From: Asaia bogorensis
Lineage (GTDB): Bacteria; Pseudomonadota; Alphaproteobacteria; CACIAM-22H2
Assembly: GCA_945901855.1 (NCBI GenBank)
Contig: CAMDLT010000011.1
Coordinates: 1 to 64,000 of the forward strand
DNA: 64,000 bases
Direction of reading: 5' to 3'
In this document: in pieces, positions 19,438 to 38,786 of the stretch
Numbering within the stretch: position 1 is the first letter of the stretch
Layout of the letters: every line of letters starts with the position of its first letter
Made by a program: the position numbers and the translations under genes
Notes under the pieces: generated by a model
Seen by the model: only the letters and a program-made list of their open reading frames with translations
What the model was told of the DNA's origin: nothing
Databases searched by the model: none

Positions 19438-19452
19438 GGCCCAAAAAAGAAA

Positions 19453-19476
19453 GGGCCGTACCCGAAGGCACGGCCC
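19453..19476. terminator. Hairpin, terminator-like (GGGCCGTaccCGAAggcACGGCCC); T-run only on minus-strand reading
   Basis: 7-bp perfect stem; minus reading is followed by TTTCTTTTTT. Confidence 0.4.
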
Positions 19477-19782
19477 AAGTTTAGGGAGGAAACGCCCACG
19501 AAACGGCGCAAAGGCCATTTCGAGATGCGGCAATCAAATGCCGCAATGCAATAATTGTATGTTGCGGCGCAAAAATCAAGGGGAAAAATGGTTAGAATTG
19601 TTAAAAATCAGCGACTAAGCGTACCGACTCAAGCATCCAGTTGAGTTCATTTGATATTTTGACGGGTATTTTACGTCTCAGAATACCGCAACGCACCATA
19701 ATACGGCCTTCTGCCGGAGTTTTTGAGCGCTCGCTTGCCCTGTTGCGCAAGCAATGCGCAAATAGGCGCCGAACGAGGGGCG

Positions 19783-31917: not shown

Positions 31918-34098
31918 ATGGCTGCCAAAAAGAAGCTCGCCAAGAAAGCACCCGCGAAAAAGCCGCCCGTCAAGAAAGCGGCGGCAAAGACCGCATCGGT
32001 CAAAAAACCGGTGCCCAAATCCGTGCCCAAAGCCAAACCGGTACCGGCAAAAAAGCCCGCAGCGAAACCCGTCGCCAAGAAGCTCCCGGCTAAAAAGGCG
32101 GCAGCGGCTAAATCGGCGCCGACTAAATTGGCAGCGGGCAAATTGGCACCGGGCAAATTGGCACCGGGCAAATCCGCTCCCGCGAAGCTGGTTCCCGTCA
32201 AGACAGGCGCCAAATCTGCCGCCAAACGGGCGGTTGTGGCAGCACCTGCCAAGGCGCCTGCCCCGAAGGCTGCGGGCTCCAAAGCCCCGGCTTCCAAACC
32301 AGTCGCAGCCCCCGCACCGCTCGCCGCTGTTGCACCCGCCAAACAGGCTGGCGCCGCGAAACCGGCAGCACCCGTCAAACCGGCCCCCGCTACAAAATCG
32401 GCCCCCCCGGCAAAACCGACCGGAGTCGCCAAACCGGCCGCGCCGCCCCCGGCGGTAAAGCTGCCCGTCAAGGGCCCCGGCGGCACGATGCTGCCCGATG
32501 ACGGCGTCAAGCTCGATGCCAAGATTCTGCCCGCGCACGTGGCGATCCTGACGCCCGAGGCGATCGCGTTTGTGGTCGAGCTGGAGCGCAAATTCGGCGC
32601 GCGGCGGCACGAATTGCTGGCCCTGCGCGCGGCCCGCCAAACGCGCCTGGATGCGGGCGAGAAGCCCGATTTCTCGCCGCTGACACGCTCGGTGCGCGAC
32701 GGCGACTGGACGGTCGCCCCGCTGCCCAAGGATCTGCTGGATCGGCGCGTCGAGATTACGGGACCGGTCGACCGCAAGATGGTGATCAACGCCCTCAATA
32801 GCGGGGCGAACGTGTTCATGGCCGATTTCGAGAATGCCTCGACGCCGAGCTGGAACAATCTGCTCGACGGCCAGATCAATCTGCGCGACGCGGTTGCGGG
32901 CACCATCGCCTACAGCGATGCCGGCACCGGCAAAAGCTACAAAGTGGGCCCCAAGCCCGCCGTGCTGTTCGTGCGCCCGCGCGGGTTCGCGCTGCCCGAA
33001 AAGCATCTGTCGGTCGACGGCAAGGCGATGTCGGGCGCGTTTTTCGATTTCGGCCTGTATTTTTTCCACAATGCGCGCGCCCTGCTGAAAAACGGGTCGG
33101 GTCCGTATTTCTATCTGCCCAAGCTCGAAAGCCATCTGGAAGCGCGGCTGTGGAACGACGTGTTCGTGCACGCGCAGAACGCGCTTGGCTTCCGCCAGGG
33201 CTCGATCAAAGCGACCGTGCTGATCGAGACGATCTTGGCGGCGTTCGAGATGGACGAGATCCTTTACGAACTGCGCGAGCATTCGGCCGGGCTCAATTGC
33301 GGGCGCTGGGACTACATCTTCAGCTTCATCAAGAAATTCGCCGCGCGCGAATCCTGCCTGATGCCCGATCGCGGCCAGGTGACGATGACGGCGCATTTCA
33401 TGCGCGCCTACAGCCAGTTGGCGATCCGCACGTGCCACAAGCGCAACGTGCATGCGATGGGCGGCATGGCGGCGCAGATTCCGATCAAGGACGATGCGGC
33501 CGCCAACAAAACGGCGATGGACAAGGTGCGTCTGGACAAGGAACGCGAAGCCGCCGACGGACATGACGGCACGTGGGTGGCGCATCCGGGCCTGGTGCCG
33601 ATCGCGCGCGCGGCGTTCGACGACAAAATGAAAGACGCCAACCAGATCCAGCGCAAGCGCCAGGACGTGCATGTGGTGGCGGGCGATCTGCTGCAAGTGC
33701 CCGCCGGAACCGCGAGCGAAGCGGGCCTGCGGCAGAATTGCGCGGTCGGGATCGGCTATCTGGAAGCGTGGCTGCGCGGCCAGGGCTGCGTGCCGCTCGG
33801 CAATCTGATGGAAGATGCGGCGACGGCCGAAATCAGCCGCGCGCAGGTGTGGCAGCAAGTGCACCATGGCGCGCATCTGGACGACGGGCGCACGGTCGAC
33901 AAGGCGATGGTGCGCAAGACCGTCGACGAAGAAATCGAGAAGATGAAGAAGACGCTCGGCGCCGAGCGTTTCGCCAAGGGCCGCTTCAAGGAAGCCACGA
34001 AGCTGTTTTTGGAACTCGTGGAAGCCGAAAGCTTCCCCGAATTCCTGACGCTGCCCGCCTACGACTGGATCGTCGCCAACGAAGCCAAGCTCGGTTAG
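31918..34098 (+). CDS. aceB: Malate synthase (A-type) with ~190-aa Lys/Ala/Pro-rich, histone-H1/AlgP-like N-terminal extension
   Basis: Low-complexity MAAKKKLAKKAPAKKPPVKK... continuous with GPVDRKMVINALNSGANVFMADFENASTPSWNNL...MTAHFMRAYSQLAIRTCHKRNVHAMGGMAAQIP. Confidence 0.88.
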   Translation: MAAKKKLAKKAPAKKPPVKKAAAKTASVKKPVPKSVPKAKPVPAKKPAAKPVAKKLPAKKAAAAKSAPTKLAAGKLAPGKLAPGKSAPAKLVPVKTGAKSAAKRAVVAAPAKAPAPKAAGSKAPASKPVAAPAPLAAVAPAKQAGAAKPAAPVKPAPATKSAPPAKPTGVAKPAAPPPAVKLPVKGPGGTMLPDDGVKLDAKILPAHVAILTPEAIAFVVELERKFGARRHELLALRAARQTRLDAGEKPDFSPLTRSVRDGDWTVAPLPKDLLDRRVEITGPVDRKMVINALNSGANVFMADFENASTPSWNNLLDGQINLRDAVAGTIAYSDAGTGKSYKVGPKPAVLFVRPRGFALPEKHLSVDGKAMSGAFFDFGLYFFHNARALLKNGSGPYFYLPKLESHLEARLWNDVFVHAQNALGFRQGSIKATVLIETILAAFEMDEILYELREHSAGLNCGRWDYIFSFIKKFAARESCLMPDRGQVTMTAHFMRAYSQLAIRTCHKRNVHAMGGMAAQIPIKDDAAANKTAMDKVRLDKEREAADGHDGTWVAHPGLVPIARAAFDDKMKDANQIQRKRQDVHVVAGDLLQVPAGTASEAGLRQNCAVGIGYLEAWLRGQGCVPLGNLMEDAATAEISRAQVWQQVHHGAHLDDGRTVDKAMVRKTVDEEIEKMKKTLGAERFAKGRFKEATKLFLELVEAESFPEFLTLPAYDWIVANEAKLG

Positions 34099-34114: not shown

Positions 34115-35854
34115 TTGCTGACCAAGCTGAGTATCCGGAATTTGAAGCGCTTCGACTCGGTCGAAATCGACCTCGGGCGCGCAGTCGTGTTTGTCGGACC
34201 CAACAATTCCGGCAAGACAACGGCGTTGCAGGCGCTGTCGCTGTGGCGCCACGGGCTGCTCGCCTGGACGGCCAAGCGCGAAAGCGGCTCCGTTGCCGAG
34301 AAACGTCCCGGCGTCGCGCTCAATCGGCGCGACCTGATAGCAATTCCGGTTCCGTCCGCGAAACAGCTGTGGCGGCGCCTTGAAACGCGCCACGCGCGCA
34401 AGAAGTCCGGCAAGCTAGAAACCGAGAACATTCGCATCGAAATTGTTGTCGAGGGAATCGACGACTTGACCGGTACGGCGTGGACTTGCGGCCTCGAGTT
34501 CGATTGGGGCAACGAGGAGTCGTTCTATTGTCGGCCGCTTCGGCTTGAAAAATCGAAAAACGTCGGCCGCATGCCGGTGCCGCCGCAAGCGGCAGATACG
34601 AAGATCGCTTTTCTGCCGCCGATGTCGGGCATCGCGGCCATCGAGCCGAGGCTCGAACGCGGACGTGTCGATGTGTTGCTGGGCGAAGGGCAGACCGCGC
34701 AGGTCTTGCGCAATCTTTGCCATCAAATCGCCGAAGACAGGAGCGATCCCGGCGCGTGGGACGAGATGTCGGGGCATATCAAGATTTTGTTTGGCGTCGA
34801 TCTCCGACGTCCGACTTATCTCGCGGCCCGCGGCGAAATCACAATGACCTACGCCGAGGCGAACGGGACTGTATTGGACATTGCGGCCGCGGGCCGGGGC
34901 CTGCAGCAAACCGCCTTGCTACTTTCCCATGTCTATGCAAACCCGCGAACGATACTGCTGCTCGACGAGCCCGACGCGCATCTCGAGATTCTGCGCCAGC
35001 GCCAGATCTACCAGCTTCTGTCGTCGCTCGCGCAAGAAAAGGGCTCGCAGCTTATCTGCGCGAGCCACAGCGAAATCGTTTTAAACGAAGCGGCCGAAAG
35101 AGACGTGGTCGTCGCGTTTTTGGGAAAGCCCCATCGCATCGACGACCGCGGCGCGCAGCTTCGGAAATCGTTGGCCGAAATCGGCTTCGATCAATACTAC
35201 CAAGCCCAGTCAAACGGGTGGGTCCTCTATCTTGAGGGTTCCACGGATTTGGCGATCCTTCAGGCATTCGCCGCGACGCTCGACCATCCGGCGCGCACTG
35301 CATTGGCGCAACCCTTCGTGCGATATGTAGAGAACCAGACGGGCAGCGCACGGGGCCATTTTCGAGCGCTCAAGGAAGCGGTTCCAAATCTGCAGGGCGT
35401 CGCAATTTTCGACCGTTTGCAGACGACTCCGGATTCGCCGACAGATCTCGCCATCCGAAGCTGGCAAAAATACGAGATCGAAAATTATCTTACGCGCAAG
35501 GACGTGCTTTTGGCCTTTGCGGCGCACGCCACGGCGGATGATCTTGTCGGCCAAGCGGAGTCGGCTTCCCGTCGGGAAGCGATGGGCCAGGCGATCGAGC
35601 AGATAGAAGCGGCACTCAAAGCACTCGACAAAGATCCATGGTCGGACGATATCAAGGCATCGACGGAAGTTTTGGAGCCGATTTTTCGTCGTTATTTCGA
35701 ACGGCTGAAATTGCCGATGCTGGTGCGAAAATCGAGCGCTCATATTCTGGCATCTTTCCTGCCAAGGGCGCATATCTCGCCCGAGATCGTCGAGACGCTC
35801 GATCTGATCGACGCGACCGCGCGTCGGGCGAAACGCGCGGAAGACAGCTATTGA
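34115..35854 (+). CDS. OLD-like AAA ATPase with C-terminal TOPRIM-like region
   Basis: TTG start; GPNNSGKTTALQALSLW (Walker A), TILLLDEPDAHLEI (Walker B), ICASHSEIVLNEA, then YLEGSTDLAIL...VAIFDRLQ (TOPRIM-like). Confidence 0.82.
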   Translation: MLTKLSIRNLKRFDSVEIDLGRAVVFVGPNNSGKTTALQALSLWRHGLLAWTAKRESGSVAEKRPGVALNRRDLIAIPVPSAKQLWRRLETRHARKKSGKLETENIRIEIVVEGIDDLTGTAWTCGLEFDWGNEESFYCRPLRLEKSKNVGRMPVPPQAADTKIAFLPPMSGIAAIEPRLERGRVDVLLGEGQTAQVLRNLCHQIAEDRSDPGAWDEMSGHIKILFGVDLRRPTYLAARGEITMTYAEANGTVLDIAAAGRGLQQTALLLSHVYANPRTILLLDEPDAHLEILRQRQIYQLLSSLAQEKGSQLICASHSEIVLNEAAERDVVVAFLGKPHRIDDRGAQLRKSLAEIGFDQYYQAQSNGWVLYLEGSTDLAILQAFAATLDHPARTALAQPFVRYVENQTGSARGHFRALKEAVPNLQGVAIFDRLQTTPDSPTDLAIRSWQKYEIENYLTRKDVLLAFAAHATADDLVGQAESASRREAMGQAIEQIEAALKALDKDPWSDDIKASTEVLEPIFRRYFERLKLPMLVRKSSAHILASFLPRAHISPEIVETLDLIDATARRAKRAEDSY

Positions 35855-35971
35855 TTTTCTGGCTCGATCGGCGCGGGAAAATCGGCCGCCGCATATCGGA
35901 AAGCGGATGGGTTCGCGTATGATTTTATGCTATATTGAACACAACCTCCGGCTTCCACCCCCGGACGGGGC

Positions 35972-35989
35972 GCTGTTTGACATGGTGAA
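35972..35989 (+). promoter_or_regulatory. boxA-like conserved motif GCTGTTTGACATGGTGAA
   Basis: 18-nt exact inverted match to 63423-63440. Confidence 0.45.
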
Positions 35990-36004: not shown

Positions 36005-36027
36005 CGCGGCAAAGATTTTTTGCCGCG
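36005..36027. other. Perfect hairpin CGCGGCAAA-GATTT-TTTGCCGCG
   Basis: 9-bp perfect stem, 5-nt loop in intergenic DNA. Confidence 0.8.
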
Positions 36028-36072
36028 AAATGGGTCGGCTTTTCAAATAAATCAAAGACTTGATATGCAACA

Positions 36073-36149
36073 TGTCGCGCAGATGTCGCGTCTGTGTCGC
36101 GCAGGAGTCGCGTCTATGTCGCGTAAGAATCGCATGGATGTCGCGCGGA
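36073..36149. repeat. Seven-unit 11-bp-period array, core TGTCGCG
   Basis: GTCGCG (or ATCGCA in unit 6) begins at 36074, 36085, 36096, 36107, 36118, 36129, 36140. Confidence 0.9.
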
Positions 36150-36202
36150 ACCTGACGGCGGCGGGCCAATAGGCGCGTTGCCCGGCTAGGCGCCTTTTTC
36201 CG

Positions 36203-37660
36203 TTAGGCGCGCTGAGACGTATCCGAACGTTCGCTGGAATTGGGCGGTGCAACCGGCAGGTAAACCACAAACGTCGTGCCCCGGCCGATCTCGCTTGCAA
36301 TGTCGAGCGCGCCGCGATGGCGGTTGACGATGTGCTTGACGATCGCCAAGCCCAAACCAGTTCCTCCCATATCGCGCGAGCGGCCCGCATCGACGCGGTA
36401 GAACCGCTCGGTCAAACGCGGCAAATGCTCGCGCGCGACGCCCTCGCCGTCGTCGGCGACCGAGATCTCGACATAGGCTTGGGCGCGGGCGGCAAAGCCG
36501 GGCGGCAGGCGCTTGGCGTTGGCCGCACGCACTTTGACCGTGCCGCCGCTGCGGCCGTACTTGATCGCATTGTCGATCAGGTTCTGGAAGACTTGCGCCA
36601 ACTGGTCGCTGTCGCCCGTTACGGGGGCAAGGTCGTCCGCGATGTCGACCGCCAGAACGGCGTTTTTCGCCTTGGCCGCCAGCGTCAGCGAATCGAGCGT
36701 CGTTTGCAGCGTCTTGGCGACGTCGGCGCGCGTGGCGGGCGGCGAGTGTTCGAGCTCTTCGATCTTCGACAGCGAGAGCAGGTCTTTGACGATGCGGGTC
36801 ATGCGCTGGGTCTGCGCATCCATGATGGCAAGGAAGCGCAAGCGCGCGGGCGCATCGTCCTTGGCGGGACCTTGCAGCGTTTCGATGAAGCCCGTGAGGG
36901 TCGCAAGCGGCGTGCGCAGCTCGTGGCTGACATTGGCCACAAAGTCGCGGCGCATGCGTTCGGCCTGCTGCACGCCCGTGACGTCCGCCATCGCGACCAG
37001 CACGGCGGGGGCGGCGCCAAGCGGCCGGGGCAGCGGCACGACGCGCACCCGCAAGGCACGTTCGACCGTGCCCGCAAGCCTTGCATCGACCGCCTCGGGA
37101 TGGCGGCCGGCCAGCGCTTCGGCCACCGCATCGAGCGTGCCGGGATCGCGCAAAAAGGCGATCAGCGGCTTGTTTTCAAGATCGCTGCCGAACAAAGCGC
37201 GGGCCGCCGTATTGGCCCGCACGATGTGCTCGTCCGCATCGAGCTGCAAAATTGCGTAGGGCAGCGCATCGACGATCGACTCGAGCGCGGCCTCGCTTGC
37301 CATCGGCTGCGCGCGTTCGGGCAAGGCGCGCTCGAGCCGCGCCACCGCCTCGGCCAAGGGCGCGGTCGGGCCGTCTTCGGTGGCGGCCGCCATCGAGTCG
37401 GCGGGCTCGCCTTTGGCCAATTCGTCGAGGCGGCTGGCGTGGCGGGCCAGGCGTTCGAGATGCCGATGGACCACATAGGCGGTCGCCAACACCGTGGCCA
37501 CGATGCCAAGCAGCGCCGATGTCCACGGGATCTCGTGGGCGACCGCAAGCGCCGTCAGCACGCTTGCGGCCGGCCCCGCGAGAGCCAGCAAAGAAGTCCA
37601 GAAACTGCCAGGTGCGCCGCGCATCGTATGTTTGTGCAGTCTCTTTCGGGCGGGCGTCAA
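36203..37660 (-). CDS. phoR: PhoR-like sensor histidine kinase
   Basis: PAS domain, RRDFVANVSHELRTPLATLTGFIETLQG, DNAIKYG, MGGTGLGLAIVKHIVNRHRGAL. Confidence 0.9.
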   Translation of the reverse strand: MTPARKRLHKHTMRGAPGSFWTSLLALAGPAASVLTALAVAHEIPWTSALLGIVATVLATAYVVHRHLERLARHASRLDELAKGEPADSMAAATEDGPTAPLAEAVARLERALPERAQPMASEAALESIVDALPYAILQLDADEHIVRANTAARALFGSDLENKPLIAFLRDPGTLDAVAEALAGRHPEAVDARLAGTVERALRVRVVPLPRPLGAAPAVLVAMADVTGVQQAERMRRDFVANVSHELRTPLATLTGFIETLQGPAKDDAPARLRFLAIMDAQTQRMTRIVKDLLSLSKIEELEHSPPATRADVAKTLQTTLDSLTLAAKAKNAVLAVDIADDLAPVTGDSDQLAQVFQNLIDNAIKYGRSGGTVKVRAANAKRLPPGFAARAQAYVEISVADDGEGVAREHLPRLTERFYRVDAGRSRDMGGTGLGLAIVKHIVNRHRGALDIASEIGRGTTFVVYLPVAPPNSSERSDTSQRA

Positions 37661-37702: not shown

Positions 37703-37744
37703 CTTATGAACGCGGGCTTATGAACGCGGGCTTATGAACGCCGG
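37703..37744. repeat. Three tandem copies of 14-bp CTTATGAACGCGGG
   Basis: 37703-37716, 37717-37730, 37731-37744 (last copy with one difference). Confidence 0.9.
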
Positions 37745-37745
37745 C

Positions 37746-38786
37746 TCAGCTGCCGAGCTGGGGCAGCATGCGCTCGGCTTGCGGGGGCAAAAAGCGGTCG
37801 GTATAGACCCGGCCCGGCGTCAGCGTGCTGTTCTTCACCTCGAACGCCTCGTTGACGATGCGGATATTGTTGGCGAGCTTGTCTTCGCGCACCGCCGACA
37901 TGCCGTTGGCCATCACGTAAGGCGTCATGACCAGCTCGCGCATCGACAGCATCATGCGCTCGTACTCGAGGGCCACGTCGACAAGCTGGTCACGCGACTT
38001 CAGCGACGCCACCGCCTCGCGCGGGTTGGCGATCGATTCCTTGATGCCGCGATTGATCGCCCGAACCATCGCCGCCACCGTGCGCGGATTTTTGGCCGCA
38101 TAGTCTTGCGTCACGTAGACCGCCGAGGAATAGACGTCGACGCCGAACTCGCGATAGCGGAACGTGACAATGTCCTCGTCCTTGGCGCCCAGGGCGCGCA
38201 GCGAGAAAATGCCCGACGTGATGAAGCCCGTGATCGCGTCGACCTCGCCGCGGAACAGCATCGTTTCGCGCAAGGGGGCGTTCATCGTCACCCACTCGAT
38301 CTTGGCCGCATCCAGCTTTTGGGCCTGCACCAGGGCCGGGAACATCTGGCGGCCCGCATCGACCGTCGGAGCGCCGAGCTTGCGGCCTTCGAGCTGTTTG
38401 AGGGTCGTTATGCCGGTCCGCCGCAAGGTCATGACCGCGAGCGCCGCCTGCTCGTAGGCCATGTACACGGCCGTGAGTTCCCGGCCCGGATTTTCGGCGC
38501 TGAACTTGATCATCGGATTGATGTCGCCAAAGCCGATATCGTAGGCGCCCGACGCAACACGCGTCACCGTATCGCCCGACCCCATGCCGCGATCGAGCGT
38601 CACGTTGATGCCTTCTTGCCGGAAAAACCCCTTTTCGGCCGCGTAGGTAAACACCGCCTGCGGCCCTTGAAAGGCCCAGTCGAGCGAAAAACGAACATTG
38701 GTCTGTTCGGGCGCTTGCGCCCACGCCGACGACGCCACAAACAAACCGGTGGCCAGGCTGGCGGCGACAACGATTGCAGATTTCAT
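37746..38786 (-). CDS. NMT1/THI5-like (SsuA/TauA-type) ABC substrate-binding protein
   Basis: MKSAIVVAASLATGLFVASSAWAQAPEQTNVRFSLDWAFQGPQAVFTYAAEKGFFRQEGINVTLDRGMGSGDTVTRVASG. Confidence 0.9.
   Translation of the reverse strand: MKSAIVVAASLATGLFVASSAWAQAPEQTNVRFSLDWAFQGPQAVFTYAAEKGFFRQEGINVTLDRGMGSGDTVTRVASGAYDIGFGDINPMIKFSAENPGRELTAVYMAYEQAALAVMTLRRTGITTLKQLEGRKLGAPTVDAGRQMFPALVQAQKLDAAKIEWVTMNAPLRETMLFRGEVDAITGFITSGIFSLRALGAKDEDIVTFRYREFGVDVYSSAVYVTQDYAAKNPRTVAAMVRAINRGIKESIANPREAVASLKSRDQLVDVALEYERMMLSMRELVMTPYVMANGMSAVREDKLANNIRIVNEAFEVKNSTLTPGRVYTDRFLPPQAERMLPQLGS

Follow-up and report, generated by a model that had tools for sequence, protein, structure and literature searches.

A phased 11-bp repeat array as the 3′ part of multi-copy boxA-led elements, probably a family of non-coding RNAs

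Between phoR and an OLD-like ATPase gene lies an array of seven 11-bp units, which forms the 3′ portion of a larger element. In elements of this kind, the repeats are preceded by AT-rich DNA resembling a promoter, in most cases a hairpin, a boxA of 18 bp, and a leader (Table 1). The explanation that we favor, with moderate confidence, is that the array forms the tail of a multi-copy, rrn-type antiterminated, and probably non-coding RNA family that presents the motif GUCGCG to a partner. In the window, by which we mean the whole 64,000-nt stretch of DNA analyzed, the seven units reported in the earlier note were confirmed, with cores starting at positions 36074, 36085, 36096, 36107, 36118, 36129 (as ATCGCA), and 36140, and the last base of the seventh unit is 36150. 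The setting between the two genes was also given correctly, both gene calls being backed by Pfam/PADLOC. TRF reported periods of 22 and 11 for the array, the former because the spacers alternate between CAG-like and TCT-like forms. A four-unit pattern (RTYGCR-N5-...) matched the array alone in the window (4 overlapping hits) and was found in 0/100 dinucleotide shuffles, which, together with the 18 arrays of the genome, rules out a unique or chance array. A better description of the unit is R-Y-G-T-Y-G-C-R-Y-N-N. The inverted unit that opens the array was absent from the orthologues inspected.

Table 1. Parts of the element and its two neighboring genes in the window.
Feature	Position	Strand	Evidence or remark
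OLD/GajA/AriA-like ATPase gene, neighbor on the variable side, outside the element	34115..35854	+	Pfam, PADLOC
Promoter-like -10 region (TATGCTATATT), AT-rich	35926..35936	+	Sequence comparison
boxB-like hairpin directly 5′ of boxA	35945..35968	+	Enriched across 40 elements
boxA GCTGTTTGACATGGTGAA	35972..35989	+	Identical to the 18-mer that precedes 23S rRNA in two species of the genus
Leader hairpin CGCGGCAAA-GATTT-TTTGCCGCG	36005..36027	+	Sequence
Core ATCAAAGACTTG preceding the array	36051..36062	+	Alignment A1 consensus ATCAAnGnCTTG
Inverted unit GCAACAT at array start	36067..36073	+	Opens about half of the G000 arrays, as GCAACAT or a similar unit
Array of seven 11-bp units, (GTCGCGNNNAT)x7	36074..36150	+	TRF, pattern search, family model R1
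Terminator-like hairpin AGGCGC..GCGCCT, then T5	36171..36199	+	Sequence; missing in some copies
phoR (PAS-HisKA-HATPase), convergent neighbor on the side conserved between species	36203..37660	-	Pfam, flank comparison

All genome-wide statements made here come from searches with patterns or models. Matching a pattern against the assembly identified 18 arrays in the present genome (G000), and the family model R1, a sequence model of the array plus 30 bp, gave 18 full matches there (19 rows, one of them weak). In the three sister species, the model search returned 14 matches (G002), 14 rows including fragments (G003), and 13 matches (G004); over the four genomes, E-values went down to 1e-25. The same search yielded nothing convincing elsewhere, whether in the other seven species of the genus (one weak match, E 8e-4) or in 20 genomes outside the genus. 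Unrelated genomes and viral contigs also contain VNTR-like arrays, but these are mostly homogeneous short repeats with no boxA upstream and were set aside; a phage or plasmid origin was rejected after BLAST returned no match. Exactly seven units were counted in 30 of 50 array records under a strict core rule and six units in 12, and several of the six-unit arrays have a seventh unit that is present but degenerate. By their flanking DNA, the 50 records fall into 18 orthology groups (one of which merges two neighboring sites), and 12 groups span more than one species, including those at rpoD, rpoH, phoR, AsmA-like, HIT, and other sites. Upstream of the rpoD-side element, where the contig ends, a CRISPR-like array of at least 5 repeats with 66-bp spacing was seen (L010:4432-4799).

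Orthologous arrays were compared in 53 ungapped alignments, and the register of the units was kept without indels. Across these comparisons, unit positions 4 and 5 (GC) were 99.7 and 99.4% identical, positions 1-2 were ~93% identical, and positions 3 and 6 were ~81% identical, their changes being transitions; identity at spacer positions 8-9 was ~50-54%. Judged by these substitution patterns, the core and the period of the array are selected and the spacers are nearly free. The concern raised in the earlier note, that the array might be unique to one genome with neither period nor core conserved, is answered by the conservation of both in four species. The copies in G000 resemble each other (mean 0.65) more than they resemble their orthologues (0.58-0.61), a pattern suggestive of concerted evolution or of a selective change that they share. 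At one orthologous site, an 11-nt array is present in this species and an element of the sister type described below in the other three.

The tie to the motif at 35972 that the earlier note had suggested was borne out, as GCTGTTTGACAnnGTGAA lies ~90-175 bp upstream of nearly every array, that is, of ~16 of the 18 in this genome, two local copies (L011 and L016) being without it. The 23S rRNA of two other genomes of the genus (G001 and G005) is preceded by the identical 18-mer GCTGTTTGACATGGTGAA, which is therefore the rrn boxA of the genus. In G001, covariance models also put 16S rRNA and two tRNAs before this sequence, so that boxA stands between the tRNA genes and 23S rRNA. Given a genuine rrn-type boxA, RNA polymerase therefore probably elongates through the element under NusB/S10 control, shielded from Rho. 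Among 40 elements, the 39 nt located 5′ of boxA were more stably folded than control segments taken from upstream (mean z -1.05 vs -0.11; Mann-Whitney p 2e-6), an enrichment as expected for a boxB-like hairpin, although the hairpin of the window copy, taken alone, was no better than shuffles (z +0.4). Boxes resembling the -10 region occupy a similar place in many other copies. A simple consensus scan found no sigma-70 consensus at the window copy, and because it gave the -10-like box no score, promoter activity is something that we infer. Many leaders contain hairpins comparable to that of the window copy (by eye), and the leader sequence GCGCGAUU may pair with GUCGCGC of the array, a candidate leader-to-array pairing.

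The established cases of boxA antitermination are rRNA, CRISPR arrays, phage transcripts, and a small number of mRNAs. Besides rRNA, the Nus factors have few known target genes (PMC5725501), and the expression of synthetic CRISPR arrays is raised by boxA (PMC7862264). Rfam 15 gave no match at gathering score over the element, and a literature search on boxA sRNAs in Alphaproteobacteria and on 11-bp repeats retrieved nothing relevant among open-access papers. The rrn-type boxA was also common in viral contigs (L258-L377), where, by inspection, a hairpin and AT-rich DNA resembling a promoter often come before it; this pattern is reminiscent of phage antitermination, and the boxA sequences of these contigs are possibly phage antitermination sites.

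The genus holds further boxA elements with other tails, and these reveal how the core motif is used in RNA. Eight of them have in common GATAAATAGGTTACC-GTCGCGCTT-GGTAACCTATT-GTCGCG. A covariance model built from the eight detected about ten elements in each genome of the four sister species and further ones in G006 and G008, and at ~20 of the fetched loci boxA was located ~110-180 nt upstream. The sister hairpin (GGYKAC..GTMRCC) has, in nearly every case, GUCGC and then a G or C in its loop; another GUCGC often comes just after the stem, and some loops contain two GUCGC units ~10 nt apart, which are possible intermediates to the array. In an alignment that was fitted to the covariance model, 90.9% of the stem cells were paired vs 84.0 ± 1.1 in shuffled alignments, double-sided changes numbered 21 vs 7.9, and covariation was 0.211 vs 0.112 (0/500 shuffles in each case); for the 8-sequence alignment, made without the model, the corresponding figure was 2/500 shuffles. 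Since GUCGC(G/C) sits in a covarying hairpin loop, the motif acts at the RNA level, at least in the sister elements, and the core of the array is therefore the loop motif of a structured RNA in those elements. Of the possibilities listed in the earlier note, a part of a structured RNA is hence the one that we favor, given the boxA that precedes the array and the covarying hairpin that carries its motif in the sister elements.

A second boxA element in the window (63440-63200, minus strand) ends in a tail of the sister type (GTCGCC/GTAACC), and three species have orthologues of it. In the family relatives G013 and G017, further boxA (GCTCTTTGACATGGTGAA) elements were observed (L379, L380, L383-L390) that have a promoter-like block in common, a related leader TTTTCGCGCGATTGCGGC, and other 10-11-nt tails (TGTATC, TGTCC); their leader sequence ATTGCGGC is complementary to the 3′ sequence GCCGCAAT.

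Folding of the arrays themselves was assessed by several permutation tests. Adjacent spacers are mildly complementary beyond within-genome shuffles, most clearly at lag 1 and not at lags 2-3, and neighboring units can therefore pair into short hairpins whose loop contains the core. An arrangement of three hairpins (units 1-2, 3-4, and 5-6) had 77.8% paired cells vs 75.2 ± 0.9 (1/500) with a covariation of 8/500; the alternative hairpin phase showed no signal in the paired-cell test, and in another test both phases were mildly enriched. Natural arrays had a slight folding advantage over versions with permuted units (mean z -0.36, SE 0.13). This pairing signal at the array level lends weak support to a display of the core in hairpin loops. 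No fold common to the arrays or to whole elements was found. A single long hairpin with a C.C mismatch at each turn, seen in several minimum-energy folds, was rejected, as neither an anti-diagonal permutation test nor two further tests (z -0.4 in one, 55/500 in the other) supported it. No compensation was detected between core positions 3 and 6 of neighboring units. In the core, C-to-T changes occur as often as G-to-A changes, so simple pairing with one RNA partner is not favored.

Compared with dinucleotide shuffles as a composition control, fold energy showed no preference for the boxA strand. Such strand-neutral energies would suit a duplex DNA site, at which a protein oligomer would touch the same face of the helix once per turn, one unit each time, in a nucleoid- or operator-like manner, and the boxA transcript would be a separate neighbor. 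The strict 11-bp phasing, with one core per about one turn of DNA, points the same way, and the conserved GTYGCR, tolerating transitions on both halves, looks like a protein site. We nevertheless consider a DNA site unlikely, because nearly all arrays of the family are downstream of a boxA leader and because the sister elements hold the core in a covarying hairpin loop, with 10-nt spacing and often in one or two copies.

The gene downstream of the array is convergent in 15 of the 18 local copies, its stop codon being close behind the array (partly by inspection), and co-directional in the other three, where the arrays are upstream of SMP-30-like, leuA, and galU genes. Neighbors of the arrays are mostly ordinary genes. 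The downstream flank is common to 53 of 54 orthologue pairs and the upstream flank to 20 of 54. phoR has orthologues in all 11 genomes of the genus, and at the phoR site G002, G003, and G004 are syntenic up to an rpoH-like gene, followed by a different insert of ~1.2-1.5 kb and then the element. In four more distant species, the phoR site is without the element and the neighbor gene differs. The co-occurrence with OLD-like genes considered in the earlier note is unsupported, and a link to them was rejected, the OLD gene being absent at orthologous arrays.

Elements at the edge of variable DNA, dispersed in intergenic positions and homogenized within G000, might be non-autonomous REP/MITE-like repeats that have spread to gene 3′ ends, with the array as the end or binding site of a mobilizing enzyme and with no function for the cell. 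We regard this origin as quite unlikely, given the orthologous positions in four species, the selected cores, and the lack of indels; terminal inverted repeats, target duplications, or conserved ends were not noticed in the elements, and the flank asymmetry is equally explained by free space between convergent genes. The gap beside the phoR-side element (window 34115-35854; L437:16875-18011; L436:16568-17881) holds a different gene in each species, and two of the inserts are defense-like, namely the OLD/AriA-like gene here and an Mrr-type nuclease (Mrr-like PDC-S02) in G003; we read the inserts as insertions into this free space, outside the element. Elsewhere in the window, three 14-bp direct repeats (CTTATGAACGCGGG) are located between phoR and substrate-binding-protein genes (37703-37746), a malate-synthase-like ORF (31918-32400, plus strand) has a long Lys/Ala/Pro-rich N-terminal stretch with tandem 15-bp repeats at 32100-32174, and an Rfam suhB/mmgR small RNA scored above the gathering score at 19439-19522 (minus strand).

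The terminator-like hairpin behind the window array has a 13-nt loop, beyond the limits of the terminator scan, and no intrinsic terminator was consistent across copies. The array could be a Rho-loading or other termination zone, with a YC per ~11 nt over ~77 nt, where the boxA transcript stops short of the convergent gene. Its place at the 3′ end of the unit, with an opposing gene adjoining in most copies, agrees with such a role, as do the inconsistent intrinsic terminators and the C/U-rich tails of more distant relatives. However, GUCGCG is G-rich and able to pair, unlike a rut site, an invariant GC is unneeded by Rho, boxA would counteract Rho, and three copies precede co-directional genes, so we judge a Rho zone to be very unlikely.

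On the preferred explanation, a tail that presents GUCGCG to a partner, each element would be a small non-coding RNA gene with ~13-18 copies per genome in four related species. Transcription, presumably of the boxA strand, would start near 35940 and pass the boxB-like hairpin and then the rrn-type boxA, after which RNA polymerase would proceed past the leader and seven GUCGCG units and stop next to where the convergent gene ends. In the RNA, the tail would show GUCGCG repeatedly, in small hairpin loops formed by neighboring complementary units and in the linkers, and through this repeated display would offer a multivalent platform or a decoy to a partner that acts in trans, either an RNA-binding protein or another RNA. 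More tentatively, these genes may represent a new class of bacterial regulatory RNA. Members of such a multi-copy family, antiterminated through boxA, would have 3′ tails with 10-11-nt repeat arrays specific to their lineage; these arrays would change together throughout a genome and so follow a trans-acting partner with which they co-evolve. If true, the boxA machinery would extend to many short non-coding genes per chromosome, each ending in seven 11-nt units. The paralogues and orthologues of the array family would be a ready set for finding the partner, and a superfamily that swaps the repeat but keeps place and leader would offer a natural experiment in the co-evolution of a multivalent RNA and its binder.

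Several known systems resemble the element in part. The ParR/iteron centromere parC of plasmid R1 has 11-bp iterons, and 11-bp direct repeats are what such centromeres have in common with the array. Unlike them, the array exists in ~18 dispersed chromosomal copies, nearly all behind their own boxA leader, in place of a few sites on one replicon beside parAB-like genes, and the centromere or partition site proposed in the earlier note is thus unlikely. CcsR RNAs are arranged in tandem and have CUCCUCCC loops. These "cuckoo" sRNAs of Rhodobacter (PMC10253847 and related) are likewise a multi-copy alphaproteobacterial sRNA family, from which the present one is set apart, by description, through its single dispersed genes, boxA, and 11-nt array. 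The antitermination leaders of rrn operons (boxB-boxA-boxC; NusB/S10, SuhB) have the same order of hairpin and boxA, and the 18-mer is identical to the 23S-side boxA of the genus, but the element is short, has no rRNA behind it, ends in a repeat array, and occurs in several copies per genome. CRISPR arrays led by boxA (Stringer et al., as cited in PMC7862264) are alike in placing boxA before a transcribed non-coding repeat array and differ from the 11-bp units, near-constant unit number, and absence of unique foreign-origin spacers seen here. The long repeats and unique constant-length spacers of CRISPR arrays were not found, the units being 11 bp and the spacers 5 nt, and Rfam gave only a sub-threshold chance match for the array as CRISPR. 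CsrA, the protein known to use decoy RNAs of the CsrB/RsmZ type, was detected in 0 of 11 genomes of the genus, with control genomes positive, and a CsrA decoy or membership in CsrB is ruled out by this absence and by the conserved motif, which is GUCGCG instead of the GGA that CsrB/RsmZ-type decoy RNAs carry in hairpin loops. The likeness to these decoys (PMC7652899, PMC4005645) is a mechanistic one, a single short motif shown repeatedly and partly in hairpin loops, and by this analogy the family would work like CsrB without being a member of it.
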